Source: Bordetella parapertussis | Lineage (GTDB): Bacteria > Pseudomonadota > Gammaproteobacteria > Burkholderiales > Burkholderiaceae_B | Length of the DNA stretch: 48,065 nt | Assembly (NCBI GenBank): GCA_945887835.1 | Contig: CAMCZQ010000005.1 | Location: 1-48,065, forward strand | Direction of reading: 5' to 3' | Part shown: positions 1 through 12,033 of the stretch, one piece after another | Layout of the letters: the number at the start of each line of letters is the position of its first letter | Numbering within the stretch: the first letter of the stretch is position 1 | The notes under the pieces: generated by a model | The model's database searches: none | The model's input: only the letters and a program-made list of their open reading frames with translations | What the model was told of the DNA's origin: nothing | Program-made: the position numbers and the translations under genes

Positions 1-762
1 TGTCACCTTATTCTTTTTGATCAGATCGATGACGCGCACAACCTCTGCAGCCGTCGGCTCGCTACCGGTGGCTAGGCCTTGCAAAGGATAAAAGGTCACG
101 CCATAAGCCGCCGCAAAATAACCAAAAGCATCGTGCGAGGTGATCACCCTGCGTCGTTCAACCGGCACGGTAGCAATTTGAGCCTTTGTGGCCTGATCCA
201 GTGCCCGAATACGTTTGTTATAGTCAGCAGCGCGTTGTTCAAACACCGCAGAATGCGCTGGCAACGCTGCTGCTAAGGCGATTCGGATTGTCTCAACATA
301 ACGCTCGGCATTCGCCAAGTTTTGCCAGGCATGAGGGTCGGGCGCACCGTGCGAATGCTGATGACCATGCCCTTTGGAAGCGCCCGCGTGATGATGGTCA
401 TCTTTGAGCTGAAGAGGGCTCTTCACCCCTTTGCTAGCAATCACAATGGGGCCGCGATAGCCAGAGGCTTTCACTAAGCGATCCAACCAGCCTTCAAAAC
501 CCAGACCATTCACAAACACTAAACGCGCCGACGCAATACGCTTAGCATCAGCAGGTGTTGGATTAAAAACGTGTGAGTCGGTGTTGGGGCCAACAAGTGA
601 TGTCACCTCAATGTGCGGGCCTCCGACTTCACGCACCATATCGGCCAAGATCGAAAAACTCGCAACAACAGGCAAGGGTTGCGCCGCAAGCACTGGCGTG
701 ACCAAACAAAACACAATCGCCAGAAAAAGTTTTTGTAGACGTTCGTTGACCACGTTCAGCAT
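1..762 (-). CDS. znuA: Zinc ABC transporter periplasmic binding protein ZnuA (C-terminus beyond window)
   Basis: Captures Zn(II) in the periplasm and delivers it to the ZnuBC permease. The first 254 residues are present; the gene runs off the left edge of the window. A signal peptide covers about residues 1-27 (hydrophobic LAIVFCLVTPVLA, then AAQ). Expected zinc-ligand histidines are seen at H64 (DSHVFNPTP), H144 (DPHAWQN) and H210 (VITSHDAFGYF), with the family block YPLQGLATGSEPTAAEV near residues 225-241. A His/Asp-rich loop lies between the first two ligands at about residues 121-144, as usual for ZnuA and thought to collect zinc. The start ATG follows the znuB stop by one nucleotide, so the genes are co-transcribed. 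Family assignment is firm; zinc rather than manganese is inferred from the His-rich loop and the neighbouring Zur. Confidence 0.93.
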   Translation of the reverse strand, partial: MLNVVNERLQKLFLAIVFCLVTPVLAAQPLPVVASFSILADMVREVGGPHIEVTSLVGPNTDSHVFNPTPADAKRIASARLVFVNGLGFEGWLDRLVKASGYRGPIVIASKGVKSPLQLKDDHHHAGASKGHGHQHSHGAPDPHAWQNLANAERYVETIRIALAAALPAHSAVFEQRAADYNKRIRALDQATKAQIATVPVERRRVITSHDAFGYFAAAYGVTFYPLQGLATGSEPTAAEVVRVIDLIKKNKVT

Positions 763-763
763 C

Positions 764-1657
764 TTAAGCCTCTTTATGTTGATGAGCGGGAAACCACACC
801 AGGCGCAGGCTCTCGCGTACACCCAGACAAAGCGAGAGCAAATACAGCCCTCCGGCAAACAAAACAATTGCAGGACCTGGAGGTACGTTAGCGTGGTATG
901 AAATCAACAGCCCAGCTGCTCCGCTTAACGCACCAAACCCAGCAGCAAAAAGCGCTCTGGCCACAACACCGGCACACCAAAACCGCGCAGCTGTCGCTGG
1001 CAACATCAGCAAGCCGACGGCCATGAGTGTGCCTAACGCTTGAAAGGCAGATACCAAGGTCAGCACCACCATCAACATAAAGAGTTGATGCACTAAACCA
1101 CCTCGCCCACCGACCGAGCGTAAAAAAACAGGATCGAAACACTCAACAATCAACGGACGCCAAATCACTGCGAGCCCGAGCAGAGTCAGGCTTGACGCTC
1201 CGCCGATCAGCAACAGCGACTCACCGTCTATTGCTAGCACGCTGCCAAACAGGAAGTGAAGCAAATCGACCTTACTATCAGACGTTGCAATCAGCATCAC
1301 GCCGAGTGCTAACGTAATTAAATAGAACGAGGCAAAACTAGCATCCTCTTTTTGTGCGGTCCAGCGCGTGACCGCGGCAGCAAGCAAGGCCATGAGCGCG
1401 GCTGCAACAAAACTGCCGATGGTCATCGCGGGTAACGACAGGCCAAAAAATATAAAGCCGACCGCAGCACCTGGCAACACTGCATGCGCGATGGCATCGC
1501 CCGCCAAACTCATACGCCGTAAGACGAGAATGGTACCGATCGGCCCACAAGCTAAGCCAATCGCGAGACACGCCACCAAGGCGCGTCGCATGAAATCATA
1601 TTCAACGAAAGGCTGAAAGAACCACGCATACGCCAATACAAACCAATCAAACACCAT
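764..1657 (-). CDS. znuB: Zinc ABC transporter permease ZnuB
   Basis: Inner-membrane channel subunit of the zinc importer (ABC-3 permease family). The 297 residues are highly hydrophobic with about eight to nine membrane segments. The family signature near residues 45-65, RRMSLAGDAIAHAVLPGAA, is clear, and the usual late segment LGTLMAVGLLMLPATAARF is present. Its ATG overlaps the stop codon of znuC (TGATG), and znuA begins directly after its stop, giving the order His-rich protein, znuC, znuB, znuA. The C-terminal tail AHQHKEA has two histidines. Length and motifs are normal for the family; no defect is seen. Confidence 0.94.
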   Translation of the reverse strand: MVFDWFVLAYAWFFQPFVEYDFMRRALVACLAIGLACGPIGTILVLRRMSLAGDAIAHAVLPGAAVGFIFFGLSLPAMTIGSFVAAALMALLAAAVTRWTAQKEDASFASFYLITLALGVMLIATSDSKVDLLHFLFGSVLAIDGESLLLIGGASSLTLLGLAVIWRPLIVECFDPVFLRSVGGRGGLVHQLFMLMVVLTLVSAFQALGTLMAVGLLMLPATAARFWCAGVVARALFAAGFGALSGAAGLLISYHANVPPGPAIVLFAGGLYLLSLCLGVRESLRLVWFPAHQHKEA

Positions 1658-2442
1658 CAGCGCACCATCCCCACATCACTGGGCCGCGCGCACCAGGGTG
1701 CCCGCTCATCCCAATATTCAGACGTTTGTCGAGCTCGCGCGAGGTTTTCGGGTGCGAGTGCTTGCGCGCTATCGCCCCAGGCAATGACTTCGCGTGCCAA
1801 TAACAGTGTTTGTGGAAAATGTGCGAGAACCATATTCATGTCGTGCAACACGGCGATGACCGTGCGCGCCTGCCGGTGCCAAGTCAGCACAACTTGTAAT
1901 AAGTCATCCGCGGTACGCGTATCCAATGCATTGAAAGGCTCGTCGAGCAAAATAATTGGTGCGTCTTGCATCAGCAACCGTGCAAACAACACCCGCTGCA
2001 GTTGGCCAACGGACAGTTCACCGATCAAGCGACGTTCAAATCCAACCAGACCTACCGCAGCCAATGCTTCGGTGGCATGCATACGCATCAGTGCTGTCAC
2101 GCGATTAAAGCTTTTGAGCTCGCGCCAGGCCCCGAGCAATACAACGTCTACCACACGAATCGGAAACTCTCGGTCAATTGAGGATTGCTGTGGAAGATAG
2201 GCCAATTCACACTTTTGGGCGCGTCCAAAGTGAATTGACCCCTCTGCGGCCTGAAGTTGACCAGAGAGCGCACCGAGCAGTGTGCTTTTGCCGGCACCAT
2301 TCGGGCCCACGATCGCGGTAAGCGAACCGGGCAGAAAACGCCCCGTCACGTGATGCACCGCAGGGTGCCCTTGATAGGCAAGCGTCAGATTTTGGATCTC
2401 GATCGCTTCAGGCGTGAGTCGGGTCGAACGCTGATCAGACAT
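1657..2442 (-). CDS. znuC: Zinc ABC transporter ATPase ZnuC
   Basis: ATP-hydrolysing subunit that drives zinc import, on the cytoplasmic face of ZnuB. Walker A is GPNGAGKST, the Q-loop region is LAYLPQQSS, the ABC signature is LSVGQLQRVLFAR, Walker B is IILLDEPFNALD, and the switch histidine is in AVLHDMN. I place the start at the ATG at 2442 (MSDQRST); an in-frame TTG three codons upstream is possible but no better ribosome site supports it. The start overlaps the end of the upstream His-rich gene by 8 nt, suggesting translational coupling. Signature glutamine replaces the more common second glycine-lined form (LSVGQ), as in many metal-type ATPases. Confidence 0.94.
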   Translation of the reverse strand: MSDQRSTRLTPEAIEIQNLTLAYQGHPAVHHVTGRFLPGSLTAIVGPNGAGKSTLLGALSGQLQAAEGSIHFGRAQKCELAYLPQQSSIDREFPIRVVDVVLLGAWRELKSFNRVTALMRMHATEALAAVGLVGFERRLIGELSVGQLQRVLFARLLMQDAPIILLDEPFNALDTRTADDLLQVVLTWHRQARTVIAVLHDMNMVLAHFPQTLLLAREVIAWGDSAQALAPENLARARQTSEYWDERAPWCARPSDVGMVR

Positions 2443-2752
2443 TGCCAACAAACGCCCAGAAAATTGCTAACCACAACAAACTCAGCAAGGCGCACACCGC
2501 CAAGACCCTTGCGCCAACTCCAACTAAAACGGGGCTGACTTCGACTCGCGAACCACTTGGGCGTGGGCCGTGCGTGTGCGGCACCGAATGATCGTGCGTG
2601 TGGCTATGGGCGTGAAACGCTGGCTGACCTTGACTCTTATCATGAGCGTGCTGCTCGACCGTCTGATGCACATGCGCTGCGTCAGGCTGCCGTCCAAGTG
2701 CTTGGCTGACGGGTTCATTCGTTCGAGGAGACTGTGCTGAGGCCAGGGGCAT
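2435..2752 (-). CDS. Histidine-rich single-span membrane protein, first gene of the znu operon
   Basis: Unrecognised 105-residue protein. Residues 27-61 contain eleven histidines, mostly as alternating HxH pairs, a pattern typical of zinc-binding linkers. Residues 78-102 form one strongly hydrophobic membrane segment ending in FVGNV. There is no classical signal peptide, so the His-rich part may face the cytoplasm or the periplasm depending on topology. It is the first gene after the Zur-type operator and overlaps znuC by 8 nt, so it is made with the importer. By inference it is a zinc buffer or an accessory subunit of ZnuBC, but nothing in the sequence proves this. The coding call rests on the operon overlap and composition; no known family was recognised. 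Confidence 0.75.
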   Translation of the reverse strand: MPLASAQSPRTNEPVSQALGRQPDAAHVHQTVEQHAHDKSQGQPAFHAHSHTHDHSVPHTHGPRPSGSRVEVSPVLVGVGARVLAVCALLSLLWLAIFWAFVGNV

Positions 2753-2822
2753 AAAGCAGGATAATCTGAGTCATTAGGGTTGAGGATGCGCATTACGTAA
2801 GGTAAAAATTTGCGCAATCTTG

Positions 2823-2848
2823 GATAATGATAATACAATATCATTATC
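2823..2848. promoter_or_regulatory. Zur-type operator between zur and the znu operon
   Basis: A perfect inverted repeat: arms GATAATGATA and TATCATTATC, 10 bp each, separated by 6 bp. Its core TGATA-N6-TATCA (2828-2843) recurs twice at 9533-9569 before the second zinc operon. It lies 70 bp before the His-rich/znu operon and 113 bp before zur, so it could control both. The sequence resembles Fur-family boxes, and the AT-rich dyad resembles known Zur sites; binding by the adjacent regulator is inferred. Confidence 0.85.
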
Positions 2849-2961
2849 GCTGCACGCACTTTGCCTCGCCTGTGTTAATTTTCGTCGTAGCCGCAGCGCA
2901 TTGCCCTGTCGACAGTCGCCGGCGCTGACCTGGTGTCGCGTTTGTTCTTCAAGAAAGGCTC

Positions 2962-3327
2962 ATGGAAAGATCAACGATTCAACGCTCTGCCATCCACGAT
3001 GCTTTAAAGCGTGCGGGGCGTCCCCTGCTGGCGCTTGAGGTGCTCGAGCTAGCGTGTGAAACTGTGCCACGCATAGGCATCGCAACGATCTACAGAAATT
3101 TAAAAACGATGGTTGACGAGGGCTTGCTTCGGCAAGTTGTCTTGCCCGGCGAAAACCCTCGGTTTGAACTCTCTGGTCACGGGCATCATCACCATTTTCA
3201 GTGCAAAACATGTCAAAAAGTCTTTGACATTCACTCGTGCCCAACCGATTTAGCCGCCCTTGCACCAAAGGGTTTTACGATCGAAGATCACGACTTGACC
3301 TTGTACGGTCGCTGCAAAAACTGCTAG
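2962..3327 (+). CDS. zur: Fur-family zinc uptake regulator Zur
   Basis: Zinc-sensing repressor of the Fur family, 121 residues. The winged-helix part includes ATIYRNLKTMVDEGLL at residues 41-56, the family DNA-recognition block. The dimerisation half has HGHHHHF (73-79), C81 and C84, and a second pair C118 and C121 at the extreme C-terminus, matching the structural zinc site of Zur/Fur. Zur rather than Fur is inferred from the adjacent znu operon and the second zinc operon with matching operator. An AAAGG ribosome site precedes the ATG. The last codons form the first unit of a four-copy 41-bp tandem repeat, so the reading frame ends inside the repeat. Confidence 0.92.
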   Translation: MERSTIQRSAIHDALKRAGRPLLALEVLELACETVPRIGIATIYRNLKTMVDEGLLRQVVLPGENPRFELSGHGHHHHFQCKTCQKVFDIHSCPTDLAALAPKGFTIEDHDLTLYGRCKNC

Positions 3328-3470
3328 CACTGAGTTGACGGATAAGTGGTCGCTGCAAAAACTGCTGGCGCTATGTTGCCAGATGAGTGACTGCAACAAA
3401 AACTACTCGCACTGAGTTGCCAGATGAGTGACCGCAGCAAAAACTACTAGCGCTGTGTTGCCGGATGAGT
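3307..3470. repeat. Four tandem copies of a 41-bp unit starting inside zur
   Basis: Units lie at 3307-3347, 3348-3388, 3389-3429 and 3430-3470, followed by a five-base partial copy. Each begins near GGTCGCTGCAAAAACTGCT and ends GATGAGT or GATAAGT. Unit 1 encodes the final residues GRCKNC and stop of Zur; units 2-4 are non-coding copies that have diverged by several substitutions. The unit length is not a multiple of three. The array fills nearly all of the gap between the convergent zur and nicO-type genes. It most likely arose by slippage duplication of the zur 3' end. Confidence 0.93.
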
Positions 3471-3488
3471 GGTCGACTCGATGACACA

Positions 3489-4658
3489 CTAGGCATTCAG
3501 CGCAGCACCGAACAACAAAATACCTAACGTCAATAAGGCAACCGACGCCAACCCCTGCACCACTAGCAGTAGCCACCGACCAACCAGACGCTGTTGACCA
3601 CCGACGACACTGACCGTGGCCTGGTTAAGCCACAGTGACGCTGTCGTCAACGCAGCCACCGTCAGCCCTGTTCCCAATCCCATCGCTAACGCCGCGGCAA
3701 CCCCGGCGAGAAAAAAACCTTGTGCCAGCGCAAAGACCAACACAAAAATAGCACCGGTGCACGGGCGTAATCCAACTGCCAAAATCGCTGAACTTGCCTT
3801 GGACCAAGTCAAGCGCCCTGTCAACAGCGCTGGATCAGGCGCATGCAAATGTCCGCAGTGCTCATCGTGCTGATGCGTGTCATGCTGTTGTGATCGTGTG
3901 ACCACCTCGGTCTCATGAGCCTCACGGTGATCGGGGTGATCGCAGTGACCGTGCTGATGGTGATGGCCGTGATGGTGGTGATGATCATGATGATTCTGTT
4001 GGGCCAGATGATGACTCTGCCCGGCATGAGAGGCATCGCTTTTTACAGGCGCCGCAGACGCACGAGCAAGTCGCTGTGTGAGCCAGCGCCAGACGGGCCG
4101 AATGATCTGCCGAAAAACGAGCCAGGCGCCGAGCGCCACCATCATGGCGTACGAGGCGATCTCAAGCCACCAAGTTGCCCGAGTTAACGCCAACCCAGAT
4201 ACGTTCAGCACCCCTGCGGCAATACCCACTAAGGTGATCGCCACAAGCGCCTGCAAAAAAGCCGACAACAATGCCAAGATCGCACCGTTTTTGACCGTTT
4301 CACGATTTGCCAAGACGTAGGCCGCTAACACAGCCTTGCCGTGCCCGGGGCCAAGTGCGTGAAACACACCATAAGCAAAAGACAAGCCAAGTAACAACCA
4401 CGCCGCCCAACCGTCTTGCTGCCAGGCACGAACCGCGCCAGTCAATTGTCGATAAAAGTGCGATTGCCACATTGCCATTTGCGCAAAAAACTCAGCAAGC
4501 CAACCCGTCGAGCTGGTACTCAAACGCTGTTCGGCTATCGCAAAGGGGTGACCGGTAACGGCAAGCACATCAGCCGTCAGACCTAAAAGAGCCACGACAA
4601 ACGCGACTGAGACGAGTGCCAGGAGCAGGCGTGGCAGTTGAGCACCGATTACAGACAT
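3489..4658 (-). CDS. NicO/RcnA-type divalent metal permease with long His-rich loop
   Basis: Integral membrane metal transporter of the nickel/cobalt NicO family, 389 residues. HALGPGHGK at residues 100-108 and GLRPCTG at 296-302 are the two family signatures, each at the start of a membrane segment. Residues 211-272 form a cytoplasmic-type loop extremely rich in His and Asp. The gene follows the DUF1007 gene by 7 nt; DUF1007-NicO pairs are a recurrent arrangement. Because the operon seems Zur-controlled, zinc is the more likely cargo than nickel or cobalt, and its direction (import or efflux) cannot be told from the sequence. It is the last gene of the six-gene operon. Confidence 0.88.
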   Translation of the reverse strand: MSVIGAQLPRLLLALVSVAFVVALLGLTADVLAVTGHPFAIAEQRLSTSSTGWLAEFFAQMAMWQSHFYRQLTGAVRAWQQDGWAAWLLLGLSFAYGVFHALGPGHGKAVLAAYVLANRETVKNGAILALLSAFLQALVAITLVGIAAGVLNVSGLALTRATWWLEIASYAMMVALGAWLVFRQIIRPVWRWLTQRLARASAAPVKSDASHAGQSHHLAQQNHHDHHHHHGHHHQHGHCDHPDHREAHETEVVTRSQQHDTHQHDEHCGHLHAPDPALLTGRLTWSKASSAILAVGLRPCTGAIFVLVFALAQGFFLAGVAAALAMGLGTGLTVAALTTASLWLNQATVSVVGGQQRLVGRWLLLVVQGLASVALLTLGILLFGAALNA

Positions 4659-4665
4659 CGCGCGC

Positions 4666-5343
4666 TCAACAGGTCACTTTGAATTGATGCGACAGTTGAC
4701 GCACAAGCTGTCGCAAATGCTCGGGTAACTCCTTTTGGTCTGGCGTCAACGCACCAAGTTGCCGTTGACTTTTTGGGTCGAGTGCCCGAGGAGGCATGTG
4801 CGAATACCGGCAGGTGGACGGCGCCTCGCTGAGCGTAAGCACCTGACTTCCCTTGTAATCAAAGGCAACAAAATAACCAGGGTCGTTGACATCAACCTCG
4901 AGCGACAGTTTGCTGAGTGCGAGCGGCTCGTTGAAGGGCAACTCAAACGACAAAGTGAGTTGATTCGTTTGAGTATCCAAGTTCGACTGCGTATGCACTG
5001 GTTTTTGCAGCGCAATAGGCTGACCGCCGTGCGACACTGTCGTAAAAAAGTGCGAGGCAGGATCAGCCAGATTCAGCATCCACTGATCCGTTAAGGTTTT
5101 AAGTTCAGCGGCTGGTACCACACCATTTTTTTCGCGCGTGATCCCCTGTAACGAAAAAGCCGAAAACAGTTCATCAAACTTCCAAGCGTGCCGCAAGGCG
5201 GTAACCTGCCCCTGACTATTAAACAAAAGAGTCAAGTGCCCCTCGATCCAAACATGAGGATGAGCATGTGCAGTTTGCGCTGCACACAAACACAAGAGCA
5301 GAGCCGTTAAACTTCGCAACCATCGAATGCTTAGCGATAACAT
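4666..5343 (-). CDS. DUF1007 periplasmic protein, partner of the NicO permease
   Basis: Exported protein of 225 residues with a signal peptide ending AHA at about residue 27, so the mature protein starts with the DUF1007 hallmark HPHVWIEG. A second characteristic stretch is HAWKFDELFSAF at about 53-64. The mature N-terminus and two cysteines near the C-terminal half (SEAPSTCRY and the final C225) could take part in metal binding or disulfide formation. DUF1007 proteins are widely found next to NicO permeases and are assumed to hand metal to or from them. The downstream permease starts 7 nt after its stop. The precise biochemical role is unknown. Confidence 0.85.
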   Translation of the reverse strand: MLSLSIRWLRSLTALLLCLCAAQTAHAHPHVWIEGHLTLLFNSQGQVTALRHAWKFDELFSAFSLQGITREKNGVVPAAELKTLTDQWMLNLADPASHFFTTVSHGGQPIALQKPVHTQSNLDTQTNQLTLSFELPFNEPLALSKLSLEVDVNDPGYFVAFDYKGSQVLTLSEAPSTCRYSHMPPRALDPKSQRQLGALTPDQKELPEHLRQLVRQLSHQFKVTC

Positions 5344-5403
5344 CGAAAATCCAGATTCATTTTGACGTGTGACTACACCACCACGATCATAATCTTATTA
5401 TTC

Positions 5404-6390
5404 TCACTTTGCGGACGCTTTTTTTTCGACACATTGAGACAGACCACTCATGATACTGTCTTTAGGCATATTTTTACCAATAAAAACCATCTTTGATTCG
5501 CGCTTTTCACCGGGACGCCAGGCAGAGCCAAGCTCTGAACCCATCAACATATGAACACCTTGAAATACCACGCGCCGCTCTTGCCCCCTAATATTCAGCA
5601 CCCCTTTGTATCGCATCAAGTTTACGCCATAGATCTGAACGAGACCATCCATAAACTCTTCTAACGGCTCGAGTCGCAGCGGACGCGATTCTCTAAATAC
5701 AAAAGACGTTACCTCATCATCGTGTTCGTGATCAACATCCGTAAGAAAATCTGGTTCAATCTCAAGAATTGAATTCAAATTAAATCCTCGAATATCAAAA
5801 AGGTCATCAACGCTTGATACCCCGTGTTTCGCGACCCCCATCTTAGCGCGAGGATTCATCTTCAGCACACGTTGACGCAAAGCTTCAAAAGCGAGCGGAT
5901 CAATCAAATCGGTTTTTGTAAACAATATTCGATCCGCAAAACCAACTTGCTCTTGCGCTTCGTGATGCTCGTCAAATTGCTGGGAAGCATGCTTGCAATC
6001 AACCATCGTAACGATAGCATCAAGTAAATACTTTTCAGACACACTTTCATCAACAAAAAAGGTTTGTGCCACAGGTGCTGGATCCGCCAACCCCGTTGTT
6101 TCGATGACGACTCGATCGAAAGAAATCGAACCCTTTTCTTTTTTTTCGACTAGCTCGCCTAAGATACGCACCAAATCGCCACGCACCGTGCAGCAGATAC
6201 AACCATTATTCATTTCAACGATTTGCTCGTCGCTGTCCTTAAATAACAAATCATTATCAATTCCCTCTTCACCGAATTCATTTTCGATCACCGCAATACG
6301 ATGTCCGTGATTGCCTTGCAAAATATTTTTTAATAATGTGGTCTTGCCACTACCTAGAAATCCTGTAAGGATTGTGACTGGAATTTTCAT
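5404..6390 (-). CDS. COG0523 (CobW-family) GTPase, putative zinc metallochaperone
   Basis: G3E-family P-loop GTPase of 328 residues. Walker A is GFLGSGKTT (10-18), the metal-binding motif CICC is at 64-67, GLADPAPV is at 100-107, and the guanine-recognition motif is TKTD at 158-161. The CobW C-terminal domain follows; a short acidic/His patch (HEHDDE) is at 221-226. Members in Zur regulons (ZigA/YeiR/ZNG1 type) are held to load zinc into client enzymes under starvation. Its position between a zinc-binding protein and a metal permease agrees. Stretches of this gene are visibly AT-richer (about one third GC in sampled 60-base blocks) than its neighbours, which may mark separate ancestry. CobW in cobalamin synthesis is unlikely as no cob genes are near. 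Confidence 0.9.
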   Translation of the reverse strand: MKIPVTILTGFLGSGKTTLLKNILQGNHGHRIAVIENEFGEEGIDNDLLFKDSDEQIVEMNNGCICCTVRGDLVRILGELVEKKEKGSISFDRVVIETTGLADPAPVAQTFFVDESVSEKYLLDAIVTMVDCKHASQQFDEHHEAQEQVGFADRILFTKTDLIDPLAFEALRQRVLKMNPRAKMGVAKHGVSSVDDLFDIRGFNLNSILEIEPDFLTDVDHEHDDEVTSFVFRESRPLRLEPLEEFMDGLVQIYGVNLMRYKGVLNIRGQERRVVFQGVHMLMGSELGSAWRPGEKRESKMVFIGKNMPKDSIMSGLSQCVEKKASAK

Positions 6391-6416
6391 AACATTTGTT
6401 CCATTTAATCTATCGT

Positions 6417-7343
6417 TTACCGTTTGTTACCAGCTTTGACAAGGCGCGCAACTGTGTCTTCAAAAAAAGCCTCCAGCGTTGAGGCCTCTTTATTGCCTCC
6501 AACGGTAAAGGGCAGCACGACGAGCGGTATGGTCGCTCTTTCGCTAAACCATTTAGAGGCAGCATCGCCTGCGTAGGCAGACGTAATAATCATGCGACCT
6601 TTTAGCTGACTTTGCCTTTGCAACACCGCACCAAGATGAACGACCGACGGATCAACACCTGGCGTTGGCTCGAGCTCACCGACTTGAACTAGGCCAAGCC
6701 AGTCGTTTAGGTATAAGTAAGCATCATGTTGCACCCAGATTTTTTCTCCTTGCAAAGGCTGAGCCCTGGTTGCCCAGCGATCAATGTTCGCTTGCCATTT
6801 AAAGATAAAGCTTCGCAACCGGTCTTGATAAAAACTACTGTTGACCGAGTCAAGCAAGACCAACCGTTCAGTCAAAGCCTGCGCAATCGGCAAAAAGTTT
6901 CGCGGATCAGTTTGAATGTGTGGATTACCTGCCGCATGCACATCGCCCATGCTTCGGTCTGCTGAGGTGGGGATACCTAGAAGCTGTATGTATTGACTCG
7001 CCTCGAACATGCCGGGCGTGCCCGGCAAGATCCTTGGATTGCCTGCGTCGCGCTGCAAGATTGGTAGCCAACCGATTTCAAGATCCGCACCGGTCGCGAG
7101 CAGCAGTTGCGCACTACGCGCCCGTGCCAGCAGCGAGGGGCGTGCTTGCACACGGTGCGGGTCTTGCAAAGCATTGGTGGCCACGTACACTTTGATTTTG
7201 TCTCCGCCCAGCTCTTCTGCCAACGCCCCCCACTCAGGCACTGTTGCGAAAACGTTAAGTTGCGCCTGGACAGGCGCACCTACCAACAATGCGCAAGCGA
7301 GCATTGCTAAAGACAACCCACGGTAAGCGTTAGAGAAAGTCAT
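6417..7343 (-). CDS. ZnuA-like metal-binding protein without cognate permease
   Basis: Periplasmic binding protein of the cluster A-I (ZnuA) fold, 308 residues, with signal peptide ending AQA at about 27. Histidines matching three zinc ligands are H63 (DPHRVQARPS), H142 (NPHIQTDP) and H206 (WVQHDAYLYL). It lacks the His-rich loop of the other ZnuA in the window, and the fourth acidic ligand is not obvious (that area reads SAYAGDAASKW). No ABC permease or ATPase is in its operon, so it may feed ZnuBC of the neighbouring operon or deliver zinc to the outer-membrane or NicO components. A good AAAGGAA ribosome site precedes the ATG. The gene ends 27 nt before the GTPase. Confidence 0.88.
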   Translation of the reverse strand: MTFSNAYRGLSLAMLACALLVGAPVQAQLNVFATVPEWGALAEELGGDKIKVYVATNALQDPHRVQARPSLLARARSAQLLLATGADLEIGWLPILQRDAGNPRILPGTPGMFEASQYIQLLGIPTSADRSMGDVHAAGNPHIQTDPRNFLPIAQALTERLVLLDSVNSSFYQDRLRSFIFKWQANIDRWATRAQPLQGEKIWVQHDAYLYLNDWLGLVQVGELEPTPGVDPSVVHLGAVLQRQSQLKGRMIITSAYAGDAASKWFSERATIPLVVLPFTVGGNKEASTLEAFFEDTVARLVKAGNKR

Positions 7344-7358
7344 GCGGATTCCTTTAGT

Positions 7359-8963
7359 TTAGAAACGATGCGCGCCATGGGCCCCGAGACTCATGATGTA
7401 TTGCAAAAAGACCTGATTATTGGTTTTGCCCGGACCGTACATCGTGTCTTGTGCGACCTGCAACCTAAACATTGAGTATTCAGAGTTAGCCCAATCCACC
7501 ATGACAGTGTTACGCATTGGGTTGTAAGACTCGAGCGGTGTGCCAGTTAAGGTACCAGCGCTAAATCCATAATTCGAATTGCCACCGAATAGCTGATCAA
7601 AGCGATAACCGACCCTCCAGTTTGGCATGAACTGATAAATGCCTTGCACGTAAAAACCACTTTGCGTGTTGGTGTAGGCATTACCAAAGCAAGGCGCTGC
7701 ACAAGACACAGACTCGTTCGGGCTATTAATTGACGCTGAACCTTTTTGGGTATTCCAGAAGGCTTCGCCCTGAAGCTTGAAGTTCTGACGACTTGAGTTA
7801 CCGTTTGGTGCCCACTTGTACACAAAATCAGCGACCAGAACACCTGTCGTGCCGTTGAACTCGAACGTATCAGTCTCGTTCAGCAAAGATTGTCTGGGAC
7901 GGTCGCCGGTGCTTGAGGTGACATAAGACAAACCACCAAGCCATGAAGACTCGGTACCAATGTCGCCGCCGAGTTTGGCAAAAATCGTGCCCAGCCTTGG
8001 TCTGTTTTCGTTAAAGTTGTTGCCGTTGGGGTAGGTCATGCCTTGCCCGAGTTCGGCCCCAAACCGAAGGTACATATTTTCAAGAGGTGCCACCCACGAA
8101 ACCTGAGCGCCCGTATTGTTAAGCTGCCCGCCAAAAAATGCCTTGTACGCAAGCGGCAAGTCAACGAAATCCCATTCGTGAGGGTGTTTGTTGTTCAAGT
8201 AACCCACATTCGAGAAGAATTTACCGGCCTTGACTTTTAAACCGCCCGGCATCGCGATCGTCTCAAAAAATGCCTCTTCTAAAGCGACACTAAAGTCTTG
8301 CCCGTCTTGTCCAAGGACTAAACGTGCCTCAGCACGAAAGAGATTATCTACCGTGCCGGCAAGTGCTAGCTCGGACTCGCCCAAAGAGAAGCCACGCGGA
8401 ATGTTTTCGCTACCGGTGGGAATAAAGCCGCGACCAAGAGTTTCTGGATTTTGGCTTTGCGCAGAATATTTACCATCAATGATCAATGAAATTTCTGGCG
8501 TGATGGGCCCAATTTTTGGTAGGACGATTCCTCTGCCTAAGGATGAAGGTGGGTTACGACCAAGGTCGGGAGCCCCAGCAACAGCGCTGCCCGAGGTTGG
8601 GCTTGCGCCAGCAGTCGTCGCGACTGGAATCGGACTCGTAATCGCTTTCGCATTTGCTGAGGTTGGTGCCGCGGGAGTAACAGTCACAGAGGCTGTCGCA
8701 GGACGCCCGGTTGTAGGCGCAGCGCCTTGCTGGCGAGACAACTGGGTATTTTGTTGCTGCAATGTCGTGATTTTTTGCTCAAGCGAGTTGATACGATTTT
8801 CGTACAACACGCGCATGGCCTGGATGGTGTCTTGAAGCTTAGCAAGATCGGCTGCGGTTGCCGGCGGCGATGCAGTTTGAGCGAGGCTGGGCTGTGCCAG
8901 CACAAAAGCGGCAACAAAGCCTAATGCTGCGCAGGCACGCGCAGCGTATTTAAGATTAAACAT
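7359..8963 (-). CDS. Outer-membrane beta-barrel protein (porin-like) of the zinc operon
   Basis: 534-residue exported protein. Residues 1-29 are a signal peptide. Residues 38-79 are a heptad-rich coiled coil (LQDTIQAMRVLYENRINSLE and onwards), residues 80-150 are an Ala/Thr/Pro/Ser linker, and the rest alternates short amphipathic strands with Gly/Asn turns and ends in Phe, as for an outer-membrane barrel. The coiled coil plus barrel layout resembles trimeric phosphate-type porins. No TonB box or plug domain is seen. Its place immediately before the periplasmic binding protein (15 nt gap) suggests a pore for zinc or a zinc complex across the outer membrane; that is inference. Ribosome site AAGGAT precedes the ATG. 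Confidence 0.82.
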   Translation of the reverse strand: MFNLKYAARACAALGFVAAFVLAQPSLAQTASPPATAADLAKLQDTIQAMRVLYENRINSLEQKITTLQQQNTQLSRQQGAAPTTGRPATASVTVTPAAPTSANAKAITSPIPVATTAGASPTSGSAVAGAPDLGRNPPSSLGRGIVLPKIGPITPEISLIIDGKYSAQSQNPETLGRGFIPTGSENIPRGFSLGESELALAGTVDNLFRAEARLVLGQDGQDFSVALEEAFFETIAMPGGLKVKAGKFFSNVGYLNNKHPHEWDFVDLPLAYKAFFGGQLNNTGAQVSWVAPLENMYLRFGAELGQGMTYPNGNNFNENRPRLGTIFAKLGGDIGTESSWLGGLSYVTSSTGDRPRQSLLNETDTFEFNGTTGVLVADFVYKWAPNGNSSRQNFKLQGEAFWNTQKGSASINSPNESVSCAAPCFGNAYTNTQSGFYVQGIYQFMPNWRVGYRFDQLFGGNSNYGFSAGTLTGTPLESYNPMRNTVMVDWANSEYSMFRLQVAQDTMYGPGKTNNQVFLQYIMSLGAHGAHRF

Positions 8964-9019
8964 CTTTTGATCCTTAAATTGAACACGAAATCAACGCTGA
9001 AAAGCGTTGCGAGAGGGTG

Positions 9020-9508
9020 TTAACTTAAGAAGGTGGGCGGCCCACGTTGATTCGCGAGTTCGACCGGTGTCGCAAAACGGCAGACCGGTTGCGATCGCGG
9101 CTGCAAAGCATCCGCACGTGAAGCCGCTAGCTGAGCGGTTTGAGACGTCAGACCAACAGTTTGAGCAACGTCCTCTAAACACTTGAGACATAACTCCGAG
9201 GCAGACGATACCTGCTCAGCGTGCGAAAAAACCGTTGCACTGGGTGGGCTGACGACGTCCTCTTCCATCACAGAATTTGGTAACGTCGCTGCGATGTCTG
9301 CGGTCACGGCCTTGGCCGAGGTTGCTTGAAGCGAGGTCGCAGCCTCGATGACGCGACTCGCTTCGTTGAGCGCGTGCTCTGGCCCGTGCCAAACCATGCT
9401 CAGTTGTAAGGCAAGAAACGCTAAAAGAGCCACACATGCCAGCACCCGACTGGCTGTCTTTCGACAGAAGTCAGGTGGAGACAGTACGATAGAGTGCGCA
9501 GTAGGCAT
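9020..9508 (-). CDS. Small membrane-anchored protein resembling DUF2946, first gene of the second zinc operon
   Basis: 162 residues from the ATG at 9508; an adjacent upstream TTG is in frame but less likely. One hydrophobic segment (about 20-39) acts as signal or anchor. The rest is Ala/Ser/Val-rich with a CLKC motif at 107-110 and a C-terminal RGPPTF. A CxxC in the middle and a terminal R-G/A-P-P are features I associate with DUF2946 proteins, often found near metal-homeostasis genes; the match is by pattern only. The Zur-type dyads lie 14-60 bp upstream, so it is the leading gene of the six-gene operon. No strong ribosome site was found. Function unknown. Confidence 0.62.
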   Translation of the reverse strand: MPTAHSIVLSPPDFCRKTASRVLACVALLAFLALQLSMVWHGPEHALNEASRVIEAATSLQATSAKAVTADIAATLPNSVMEEDVVSPPSATVFSHAEQVSSASELCLKCLEDVAQTVGLTSQTAQLAASRADALQPRSQPVCRFATPVELANQRGPPTFLS

Positions 9509-9521
9509 CAAGCAACACTAA

Positions 9522-9569
9522 GTTATCACTATTGATAACATAGTATCACTTATTGATAATGAAATATCA
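9522..9569. promoter_or_regulatory. Overlapping Zur-type operators before the six-gene zinc operon
   Basis: Two copies of TGATA-N6-TATCA lie at 9533-9548 and 9554-9569, the same core as the operator at 2828-2843. A further perfect 7-bp inverted repeat, GTTATCA-N4-TGATAAC, is at 9522-9539, and TATCA-N5-TGATA at 9544-9558 links the two. The sites are spaced 21 bp, two helical turns, so dimers would bind the same face. They end 14 bp before the first start codon and must overlap the core promoter, which suits repression under zinc sufficiency. Confidence 0.82.
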
Positions 9570-9600
9570 CTACCAATTAAAAAAGTCGACCAACCAACCT

Positions 9601-11832
9601 TTATAGGCCGACAATCCCGCCATCGTCTTTCGTGATCACGATCGTGGCTGAACGCGGGCGACCTGCAGGCCCATAACCCATATTGCCAGGCCAGGTGCTC
9701 TGGAATTTGAACTCAGTTGCATCCCCCAGAGCGGGCGTCTGCTCGCCAGGATGCTGGATATTGACAAACAAAGTCTTACCGTCGGCTGTTTCGGTCACGC
9801 CCGTCACCTCAGCCCCCTTGGGCGCCACCAAAAACCGTCTGAGCTTAGCTTCACCTAGCGCTGCGCCAATAAAGGTCTCTTGTTGGCTCGTTTGTTCTTG
9901 ACCTGCCACCACCATGTTGTTGTTCACAGTGACTTTACCGCCGTCACCCACCTGCCCCGGAATCGCTGCAAGCATCATGCAATTGGTTTCGTCGGTCATG
10001 GCACCATCATCGGTCTGTATCCAACAAATGCCTGTCGCCTGACTAAACCACAAACCATCAGGTGAAGAAAAAGAATTGTTTGCTGTGAGCCCTGAAAGAT
10101 TGGCTGAGCCTGCATCTTCTTCTGCGCCAAACAAAAAGATATCCCACTGAAACTGCAGTGCGGTTGAATGATCGTTTTGTTCGTGGAAGCGAATAATATG
10201 CCCGTTCGGATTGCCCGAACTCTTTTTGCCGTCAACGTCGGTGTAGGCGCGTGGGTTGGCAGCATTCAGCTTTGCCGGATTGCGATTCGCAGCGTCGCTG
10301 TTGGTGAGCGCAAAATAAATGTCGCCGTTCTTGTGATTCACTGCGCCATATTCAGGACGGTCCATCGGCGTTGCACCAACCGCGTCAGCCGCCAGTCGCG
10401 TATTCACCAGAACATCGGCCTGGTTCGCAAAGGCGTACTTGGCATACGACGCAATTTTAGGATCTGTCAGCGTCAGTTCAAGCCATTGACCGCTGCCATC
10501 AGCTTTAAATTGCGCCACGAACAGCTTGCCTTCATTCAGATATTTGTCACCGATGGCCATGCCACCGCCCACATCCTGAGGATTCCAGACTGCGGTGCTC
10601 ACAAACTTATAGATGTACTCATTGCGGGTGTCACAACCCATGTAAAACGCCAGAGGCTCTCCGGCTTTAGGGATTCCGCAAACTGCGGCTTCGTGCGCGA
10701 AGCGACCGAGCGCAACACGTTTTGCTGCCACCGCATCACGCGTGACAGGATCAATTTCAACAATAAAGCCAAAGGTGTTGGCTTCGTTTCTAAAATCTTG
10801 TGCCGCCGAAGCACCGCTCGCCGCTATGTTCCAACGCGTGAAGCGATTGTCCATGTCTGAGACGGTATGCCACCCTTGACTAGAGGCTTTGGGACTTTGC
10901 GGATTCAGTGGCGCACTCACTACACCATAACGCTTAAGAGAGGCCTGCGATTTAGGCTCGAGAGCCGCTGCACCTGCGGCAATCTGAAAGTATTTTGCCC
11001 AATTCTCTTCGCAGGTCAGGTACGTGCCCCAAGGCGTTTTACCGTGTCCGCAGTTATTCAGCGTGCCGCGAACCATTGCACCCTTAGGATCAAAAGCCGT
11101 CACCATCAGTGCGTGAATATTTTTCAACTCTGCTTGTGGCCCTGTCACAGACATCGGCGTTTGCGCTGTTAGGCGGCGGTTGAGCGGCGAGTCGAGTCGA
11201 TAACTCCAGCCCTGCGGCCCTTTCGTCATTTCAACAACTGAGACCCCATGCAGGTTGATCTCTTTGAGCACCTCAAGTTCAGGACGCGAGCCCAAATCCC
11301 AGGCACCAAACTGACCAAACTTTTTACCTTGCTGTCCGTTCGACGTCTGGCCCTTAGGATGCAACAGATGTGACTCAGCTGAGCTTTCGTGATTGACTAC
11401 CAACAGCGCGCGACCGGTATCGCGCTCGGTGTATTGACCTTTTTCATCAATATAAAAAATGTCCATGCCGTCGTGTTGATCTCCGATCCGGGCAGACCAA
11501 TCATCGAGTTCTAGGCCTTGATTAGAAAAAGCAGACACTTTATCGGTCAGCGGGTCGCCAGAGGCATGAAGAACCTTATAGCTATACCCTGGTGGTAATA
11601 GCACTGAGTCAAGCAGACTTTTTTGAACTGCAGAAAAGCCAAGCCCAGTGGCCGCGTTTGTGGCAGTCGTTGCGTGAGCAAAAGGGATCAGGGTGTCAGA
11701 CAACAGGCCAAGACCCGCCAATCCGATTGCACCCCGAATCAGCTGCCTACGCGAAGGGTTTTTAAGCGAGGCTGCCAAAACGGTCTGAAAATGCGGCTGT
11801 TTAGATGGGTTGTCGGTATCAATTGGGTGCAT
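9601..11832 (-). CDS. phoX: Tat-exported alkaline phosphatase PhoX
   Basis: PhoX-family (formerly DUF839) phosphomonoesterase, 743 residues, acting in the periplasm or outside. A twin-arginine signal is seen at residues 27-33 (SRRQLIR) followed by a hydrophobic stretch and FAHA. Family blocks include LLVVNHESS, GTYLTCEENW, and GLWFSQATGICWIQTDDGA. Known PhoX enzymes use calcium and iron, not the zinc needed by PhoA. The gene has its own Pho box 52 bp upstream, so it is expected to be induced by phosphate starvation through PhoB. It is tail-on to the zinc operon promoter but transcribed separately. Length is within the large-PhoX range. Confidence 0.93.
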   Translation of the reverse strand: MHPIDTDNPSKQPHFQTVLAASLKNPSRRQLIRGAIGLAGLGLLSDTLIPFAHATTATNAATGLGFSAVQKSLLDSVLLPPGYSYKVLHASGDPLTDKVSAFSNQGLELDDWSARIGDQHDGMDIFYIDEKGQYTERDTGRALLVVNHESSAESHLLHPKGQTSNGQQGKKFGQFGAWDLGSRPELEVLKEINLHGVSVVEMTKGPQGWSYRLDSPLNRRLTAQTPMSVTGPQAELKNIHALMVTAFDPKGAMVRGTLNNCGHGKTPWGTYLTCEENWAKYFQIAAGAAALEPKSQASLKRYGVVSAPLNPQSPKASSQGWHTVSDMDNRFTRWNIAASGASAAQDFRNEANTFGFIVEIDPVTRDAVAAKRVALGRFAHEAAVCGIPKAGEPLAFYMGCDTRNEYIYKFVSTAVWNPQDVGGGMAIGDKYLNEGKLFVAQFKADGSGQWLELTLTDPKIASYAKYAFANQADVLVNTRLAADAVGATPMDRPEYGAVNHKNGDIYFALTNSDAANRNPAKLNAANPRAYTDVDGKKSSGNPNGHIIRFHEQNDHSTALQFQWDIFLFGAEEDAGSANLSGLTANNSFSSPDGLWFSQATGICWIQTDDGAMTDETNCMMLAAIPGQVGDGGKVTVNNNMVVAGQEQTSQQETFIGAALGEAKLRRFLVAPKGAEVTGVTETADGKTLFVNIQHPGEQTPALGDATEFKFQSTWPGNMGYGPAGRPRSATIVITKDDGGIVGL

Positions 11833-11883
11833 GGCAAACTTCTTGAGTTAGCGTGATTAAGAACGAGATCTAACCACGCCAAA

Positions 11884-11901
11884 ATGACAGAATCATGACT
11901 G
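11884..11901 (-). promoter_or_regulatory. Pho box upstream of phoX
   Basis: Read on the minus strand, two 7-bp direct repeats, CAGTCAT and CTGTCAT, are separated by GATT. This matches the 7-4-7 PhoB box (consensus CTGTCAT in both halves) with one mismatch. It lies 52 bp before the phoX start codon, a typical distance for an activator site replacing the -35 element. Confidence 0.88.
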
Positions 11902-12033
11902 AATTTAACCAAACGGCCAATCTACTCCCGCTTAGGGTGAGGATGGCTAGCGCGGACGTCGCCGGTGTCTAAGATGCTCACCGACTTTGGCGTTTATTTT
12001 TGCTCGATCTATTGGCAAATAATGCCATCATCG

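Follow-up and report, generated by a model that had tools for sequence, protein, structure and literature searches.

Reviews and regulon papers name ZnuABC, ZIP transporters, ZevAB, TonB-dependent receptors and COG0523 in connection with zinc (PMC6103462, PMC2770081, PMC10563805, PMC4176598, PMC8000910, PMC3872050). A zinc role is reported for ZevAB of Haemophilus influenzae (PMC3872050, PMC8000910, PMC10563805), and ZnuD, ZnuK and ZnuL are described as Zur-regulated TonB-dependent zinc receptors (PMC2895646, PMC4176598). Little is known about TonB-independent passage of zinc across the outer membrane. Here we describe a zinc-related locus of a freshwater bacterium, at the start of contig CAMCZQ010000005.1 (C5) of the assembly GCA_945887835.1, listed as Bordetella parapertussis (3.66 Mb, 87% complete, 292 contigs); the whole stretch analysed, 48,065 nucleotides long, is called the window. 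We consider it fairly probable that the locus is an island of zinc-starvation genes that is controlled by a Fur-family (Zur-type) repressor and arose when two zinc-regulated loci of older origin were joined, with a COG0523 gene being inserted at a later time. One of the two would have held zur, znuCBA and a ZevAB-like DUF1007–NicO pair; from the other, a cassette of wide distribution, would come the small protein, the porin and the ZnuA-like protein.

A previous sequence-only reading of this DNA had proposed six co-directional genes at 3489–9508 as a candidate complete route for zinc from the outer membrane to the cytoplasm, with no ABC permease. The six genes of the stated families are indeed there, on the minus strand and reaching position 9511; according to Pfam and the translations, all are intact open reading frames (ORFs), with intergenic gaps of 7–60 bp. 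Namely, they encode a small protein with an N-terminal hydrophobic segment, a CxxC motif and a C-terminal RGPP (9020..9511; no Pfam match), an outer-membrane porin (7359..8963), a ZnuA-like binding protein without a His loop (6417..7343; PF01297, E 4.9e-32), in which H63, H136, H142 and H206 are invariant in an 18-row alignment, a COG0523 GTPase with a GCICC motif (5404..6390; cobW, PF02492, E 9e-58, and CobW_C, PF07683, E 3e-22), a presumably periplasmic, ZevA-like DUF1007 protein (4666..5343; PF06226, E 1.9e-48) and a ZevB-like NicO-family permease with a His-rich loop (3489..4658; PF03824, E 2.3e-38). An ABC permease is, nonetheless, not missing. Beyond zur in the same window and also on the minus strand, there are znuB (764..1657; an ABC-3 permease, PF00950, E 3.1e-53, with the cytoplasmic loop IVECFDPVFLRSVGGRGG), znuC (1657..2451; an ATPase, PF00005) and znuA1 for the His-loop binding protein of the ABC importer (1..726; PF01297, E 8.9e-69; an open-ended ORF cut by the contig end). 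ZnuB scored 251.8 bits with the AztB model (cut-off 280) and matched solved PsaB and ZnuB chains, and ZnuC scored 204.9 bits with the AztA model (cut-off 220), both values being under the respective cut-offs. Also, the cassette's own ABC-3 permease is encoded elsewhere in this genome (G000:C25:25997-26728). What stands of the proposal is therefore a set of envelope-spanning zinc-uptake parts, probably under Zur-type control, and not a self-contained six-gene route that dispenses with an ABC permease.

Conservation of the six-gene order had been put forward as a check, and when 18 related loci were compared, all six genes were found in only two, L002 (barrel 99% identical, probably the same species) and L003 (barrel 81% identical); by this test, the six-gene unit is weak. 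COG0523 is absent at that place in L015 and L004, the latter ending inside DUF1007, and L014 has none of COG0523, DUF1007 and NicO at the locus. Contig ends truncate three loci (L005, L006 and L019), and the remaining ten have only the barrel–ZnuA pair in the stretch compared, with the small gene sometimes present. In L014, matches to the barrel gene fall into two reading frames, as pieces that overlap (8876-10536); the gene may be broken in this bin or contain a sequencing error. Named relatives of the barrel protein belong to Alcaligenaceae, Zwartia hollandica among them, whose isolate LF4-65 carries locus L007; we also noticed that L002, L016, L017 and L019 come from metagenome bins titled Bordetella parapertussis or Candidatus Methylopumilus with an Alcaligenaceae-type barrel region, and these titles may be misassigned.

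As judged from gene neighbourhoods, the locus is probably a merger of older pieces with separate histories. In four genomes of the genus (G060, G108, G127 and G144), DUF1007 and NicO adjoin zur and znu genes (L111–L114); the barrel of G060, G127 and G144 is found elsewhere, in the order barrel–ZnuA-like–ABC-3 permease (L103, L105 and L106), and G108 has no barrel. Labelled zur and znu genes accompany nine of 20 DUF1007 loci selected by hand (L111–L114, L120–L122, L124 and L125; only NicO is labelled in L121). The cassette permease that this genome keeps on contig C25 has a nucleosidase gene on one side and genes for a hotdog protein, Ldh_2, OsmC, an acyl-CoA dehydrogenase and a rubredoxin on the other. 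Because these neighbours resemble those of complete cassettes in L012, L013 and L018 (and, on the nucleosidase side only, L011) when translations are compared by eye, it is probable that the barrel and ZnuA-like genes were relocated without the permease; among such neighbours, Pfam named only Ldh_2 and the nucleosidase, on L007 and L011. In L083 (9977-10759), the gene before the C25 permease resembles, on reading, those for binding proteins of the tripartite-tricarboxylate type. The guanine + cytosine content of the COG0523 gene is 0.433, compared with 0.507–0.582 in the neighbouring genes, and a later insertion of COG0523 is likely because of this low value and the absence of the gene at this place in L004, L014 and L015.

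In terms of regulation, the sequence-only reading had assumed Zur control. A Fur-family regulator is in fact encoded on the plus strand (2962..3327; PF01475, E 1e-20) and operator-like elements are present, but the regulator reached only 16 bits with the curated NCBIfam Zur model (cut-off 167), and PerR models scored above it; it is presumed to be Zur from its gene neighbours and the operator. Matches to this regulator at 58–79% identity were found in four genomes of the genus and five of the genus g32 among 151 genomes of the family, and the other listed matches were at most 38% identical. A pattern search detected a TGATA-N6-TATCA palindrome (TGATAATACAATATCA, 2828..2843) between the znu operon and zur, and upstream of the CxxC gene there are another (TGATAACATAGTATCA, 9533..9548) and, in tandem with it, the palindrome TGATAATGAAATATCA (9554..9569). 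A slightly stricter form, TGATAWNNNNWTATCA, occurs three times in the 3.66-Mb genome, twice in this locus, while the reversed control gave no site. The third copy (G000:C62:14110-14125; L031) is apparently intergenic and, by eye, near a gene for a TRAP-type-like binding protein; it is possibly a further target of the regulator or a chance occurrence. TGATA-N6-TATCA sites were found also directly upstream of zur in L111–L114 and L120. In G127 (L113 and L105) and G144 (L114 and L106), where the zur–znu and barrel loci are on different contigs, one copy is located just upstream of each, and co-regulation of the two loci is independently supported because the same operator is present at both. Four matches to the classic Zur box TGTTATNNTATAACA with three mismatches in the window were not above chance (mean 6.3), and the operator of the window is therefore TGATA-N6-TATCA rather than the classic one. 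Across the genome, GTTATNNNATAAC gave one palindromic site, which is on another contig.

The barrel–ZnuA pair is, from comparison of loci, part of a cassette composed of a small protein, a porin, a ZnuA-like protein and an ABC-3 permease. With a barrel profile, matches were obtained in 115 of the 369 class genomes (the class being the GTDB Gammaproteobacteria, as inferred from the family), 75 of them at E<1e-90; a sample of 299 genomes from the phylum gave 44, over half of which were weak matches. We examined 43 barrel loci, i.e., 37 hand-picked from the 114 other matches in the class, with strong ones favoured, and all six other matches in the family. In a six-frame profile search, a ZnuA-like gene was found downstream of the barrel in all 43 loci and a permease in 42, and the same two genes follow the barrel in six further loci from a family outside the class (L133–L138). 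An ABC ATPase gene was present anywhere in the locus in five cases and within the cassette in only two (L079 and L080), so that 41 of the 43 cassettes are without one; the other ATPase genes belong to a neighbouring canonical znuABC (L090 and L092) or lie on the other strand, some kilobases away (L096). The cassettes of L079 and L080 are divergent, with the ATPase gene after the binding protein, and may be intermediates towards the ATPase-less form. An ORF with a RAPP/RGPP-like C-terminus precedes the barrel in 39 of the 43 loci, 32 of these having CxxC as well; these small ORFs were chosen by the C-terminal motif, with no chance control. The DUF2946 family (PF11162) was matched by 17 of 40 small proteins (that of the window and 39 relatives) at E<=0.05, the best being 3.6e-6.

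Several observations on the cassette favour zinc as its substrate, zinc being assigned by association. In the 38 of the 43 loci with the porin called as an ORF, a Zur-type box agreeing at 12 or more of the 14 positions of the E. coli-type pattern was found upstream of five cassettes, where dinucleotide shuffles would give 0.05. In L074, the gene facing the cassette has the Zur model as its best match (138.6 bits, under the cut-off of 167), and a box is placed between the two genes; in L090 and L092, furthermore, the cassette adjoins canonical znuABC. No description of the cassette was found in titles and abstract starts of open-licence PMC papers, a scope that leaves RegPrecise and subscription papers outside.

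The outer-membrane protein is a porin by its modelled fold. A barrel-only model from an alignment of 50 rows reached a pLDDT (predicted local distance difference test) of 84.3 and a pTM (predicted template modelling score) of 0.86; an earlier model of the full porin, from 18 rows, had a pLDDT of 61.8. The barrel with a coiled-coil stalk in the sequence-only reading was thus borne out for the barrel, whereas the N-terminal helix (residues 37–79) was modelled at low to moderate confidence. The barrel has 16 strands (17 DSSP elements, of which 52–55 and 58–65 are counted as one) and no plug domain. The best structural matches were OprP and OprO (Z 27.9; root-mean-square deviation 2.9–3.1 over 314–317 residues; VIA), followed by PorB, OmpT, OprB and DcaP (Z ~24), with OprP, OprO and DcaP spanning Z 23.8–27.9, and the top Foldseek matches were mostly porins. 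A search of PDB chains with the porin profile (hmmsearch) gave no porin and only weak matches (best E 0.032). A TonB-dependent receptor was considered and discarded, with 16 strands, no plug in the model and no Pfam match to a receptor or plug. A motif HxHxxDxxD (HPHEWDFVD in this porin; residues 260–268, 8160..8186) is located between the modelled strands 5 and 6; H260 and H262 are conserved in 50 of 50 rows, and D265 and D268 in 48 of 50. General porins have their constriction loop L3 at this position. Because the conserved His and Asp residues sit where that loop would be, the motif suggests a putative metal-binding eyelet.

The permease of the cassette also departs from its canonical relatives. 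Those of L007, L008 and L011 matched PF00950 at E 1e-16 to 7e-18, and a PDB sequence search with a cassette permease returned no relative. The 18 alignment columns occupied by IVECFDPVFLRSVGGRGG in ZnuB of the window are empty in 50 of 53 cassette permeases, the exceptions being L081 and L082 (15 residues) and L079 (18 residues), and are filled with 18 residues in all 20 canonical permeases; the 53 include pairs from the same or near-same genomes (L007/L105, L017/L106 and L008/L103). A same-strand ATPase gene was found within 2.5 kb for the 19 canonical permeases taken from loci but for only one of the 53 cassette permeases; the window ZnuB, which was outside this scoring, adjoins znuC. By homology, we take the IVECFDPVFLRSVGGRGG loop of ABC-3 permeases to hold the coupling helix, and the segment missing from the cassette permeases should then be the site of ATPase coupling. 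Coupling helices at the interface of the transmembrane domain and the nucleotide-binding domain have been discussed for PsaBC and MntBC (PMC11779740), and the metal triad of MntC is Asp47–His51–Asp94 (PMC8487065). The column that we aligned by reading with the His of this triad has His in all 20 canonical permeases and Gln in 52 of the 53 cassette permeases, with a gap in the remaining one.

We then considered whether a canonical ZnuB accompanies the cassette. Among the 75 genomes with strong barrel matches, 57 have a completeness of 95% or more; in 29 of the 57, all ABC-3 matches are weak (E>1e-20), and in the other 28 a canonical-type permease is present, these counts leaving out 40 genomes with weaker porin matches. 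The permease was aligned for 20 of the 29 weak-only genomes and proved to be loop-less in all 20, the other nine being assigned by E-value alone. For all 115 porin genomes, the numbers are 64 with a canonical-type ABC-3 permease, 42 with weak matches only, five with none and four between. About one in two of the near-complete genomes with a strong barrel match thus yielded no ZnuB partner. A ZnuC may be encoded elsewhere in such genomes, as the window ZnuC performed poorly as a probe for ATPases; G278, G392 and G427, which have canonical znuABC, also gave only 26–31% matches, G500 apart. Our tentative proposal, to which we give somewhat less than even chances, is that the porin, the ZnuA-like protein and the ATPase-less, loop-less ABC-3-derived permease form a widespread ATP-independent, Zur-controlled high-affinity zinc importer spanning both membranes, which would stand in for ZnuABC in roughly every second near-complete genome of our sample that bears the cassette; in the lineage of the window, the outer half of this importer would then have been grafted onto a ZnuABC/ZevAB locus. 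The ATP-independent mode of the permease is suggested by the missing loop and ATPase gene.

According to the preferred reading of the window as a joined zinc-starvation island, the repressor would leave the TGATA-N6-TATCA boxes at low zinc, the porin would pass Zn2+ through a His/Asp-lined constriction (from sequence and model), and the ZnuA-like protein would take the metal in the periplasm, as its family and conserved His residues suggest. Zinc would then cross the inner membrane via ZnuBC with ATP and possibly via NicO and DUF1007. COG0523 proteins are known as a family to pass zinc to enzymes, and the one in the window would do the same. Most other bacteria that have the cassette would move zinc over the inner membrane with the cassette's own ABC-3-derived permease, as a rule without an adjacent ATPase gene or the coupling-helix loop; in the species of the window, the gene for this permease would be the one left on another contig.

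Not all observations fit this reading, and the following weigh against it. Zinc is assigned as the substrate by association, the window pair is ZevAB-like by family, and the regulator scored poorly on the Zur model. TGATA-N6-TATCA is absent from two of the four barrel loci of the genus (L103 of G060, which has the site at its zur–znu locus L111, and L104 of G086) and from a 12-kb stretch around the C25 permease. Upstream regions of 33 of the 38 cassettes scored have no strong Zur box of the E. coli type, and two of these 33 (L105 and L106) have TGATA-N6-TATCA; the boxes sought were of these two kinds. The 43-locus sample is skewed to strong matches, and a simple rule for the permease is weakened by L081 and L082, in which most of the loop is kept and no ATPase gene is present at the locus. 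In addition, the fold matches of the porin to OprP and OprO are to anion porins, a phoX gene is next door in L003–L006, L015 and L019, and DUF1007–NicO pairs occur without a labelled zur in L126, L129 and L130.

Some of these points lend themselves to other explanations. The porin might import a zinc complex or an anion such as phosphate, polyphosphate or citrate instead of free Zn2+, with phoX reflecting a phosphate linkage. Its best fold matches are to OprP, a phosphate porin, and OprO, a pyrophosphate porin, and phoX adjoins it in the six loci just mentioned; nonetheless, the 44 loci L063–L106 yielded no homologue of phoX, the conserved loop residues are His and Asp, and a ZnuA-family gene follows the porin in every one of the 43 loci, and we find this explanation rather improbable. 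Similarly, the NicO/DUF1007 pair might handle nickel or cobalt, by import or efflux, and merely be parked in a zinc locus. The only NCBIfam match of NicO is indeed to nickel/cobalt efflux (57.7 bits, under the cut-off of 195), and the pairs without a labelled zur would suit such a role, but labelled zur and znu neighbours in nine of the 20 DUF1007 loci and the position of the pair behind the tandem operator in the window make it quite unlikely.

The sequence-only reading would instead make the six genes a single, dedicated zinc pathway that does without ABC transport, running from the porin through the ZnuA-like protein and DUF1007/NicO to COG0523. The genes are co-directional with short gaps, and the slot of the cassette permease in relatives is filled here by COG0523–DUF1007–NicO. 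We would give such a route little chance, with znuABC in the same window, the full order in only two of the 18 related loci, DUF1007–NicO occurring without the porin in relatives, and the porin being much commoner than DUF1007 (115 versus 16 of the 369 class genomes).

As for the rest of the zur–znu region, a small His-rich protein with a C-terminal segment that is hydrophobic by eye is encoded on the minus strand in overlap with znuC (2435..2752; no Pfam family), and its homologues adjoin znuC in L002, L003, L014, L015 and L113. A tandem array of about four copies of a 41-bp unit (window 3307-3475) starts in the final codons of zur and takes up the whole intergenic space as far as nicO, which is convergent with zur. 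An Rfam scan of window positions 1–12000 detected no RNA.

The window brings together known or predicted zinc-starvation genes in a new combination. The claim that it has no characterised counterpart holds in that we found no description of the outer-membrane component, but the novelty sits in the wider cassette and not in the six-gene composition. The conserved set of porin, binding protein and loop-less permease is the more surprising point and is apparently undescribed, its parts being recognisable. If true, an ABC-family permease that works without an ATPase would represent a novel means of powering binding-protein-dependent import; the cassette porin is common, and the genes are few in number and open to testing. 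In addition, the window illustrates how Zur-controlled loci are assembled from modules.

Compared with the known systems, the cassette resembles ZnuABC, AztABC and PsaBCA in having a ZnuA-family binding protein, an ABC-3 permease and Zur-type regulation, and a full copy of such an importer is in the window; it differs from them in mostly lacking the ATPase gene and the permease loop and in adding the porin and the small protein. Cyanobacterial ZepA, which we considered as a candidate for a closest system, was set aside; the source, in the portion available, describes an extracellular protein with TonB-dependent receptors and no porin–ZnuA–permease unit (PMC10957091). As with ZevAB, the window has a DUF1007 gene beside a NicO gene in a zinc context, and here the pair is joined to zur–znuCBA and a porin unit; ZevA and ZevB belong to the DUF1007 and NicO families, respectively, and the likeness is one of family. 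The window porin shares the 16-strand barrel and the N-terminal helix before it with OprP, OprO and DcaP, whose own N-terminal helix likewise precedes the barrel, but it is only 12–14% identical to OprP and OprO and is set apart by HxHxxDxxD after strand 5 and the ZnuA-like neighbour gene (43/43). Like ZnuD, ZnuK and ZnuL, it would be the outer-membrane part of a presumed Zur regulon; in contrast to the 22-strand, plugged ZnuD type, however, it is modelled with 16 strands and no plug, and probably acts as a passive channel and not as a receptor driven by TonB.

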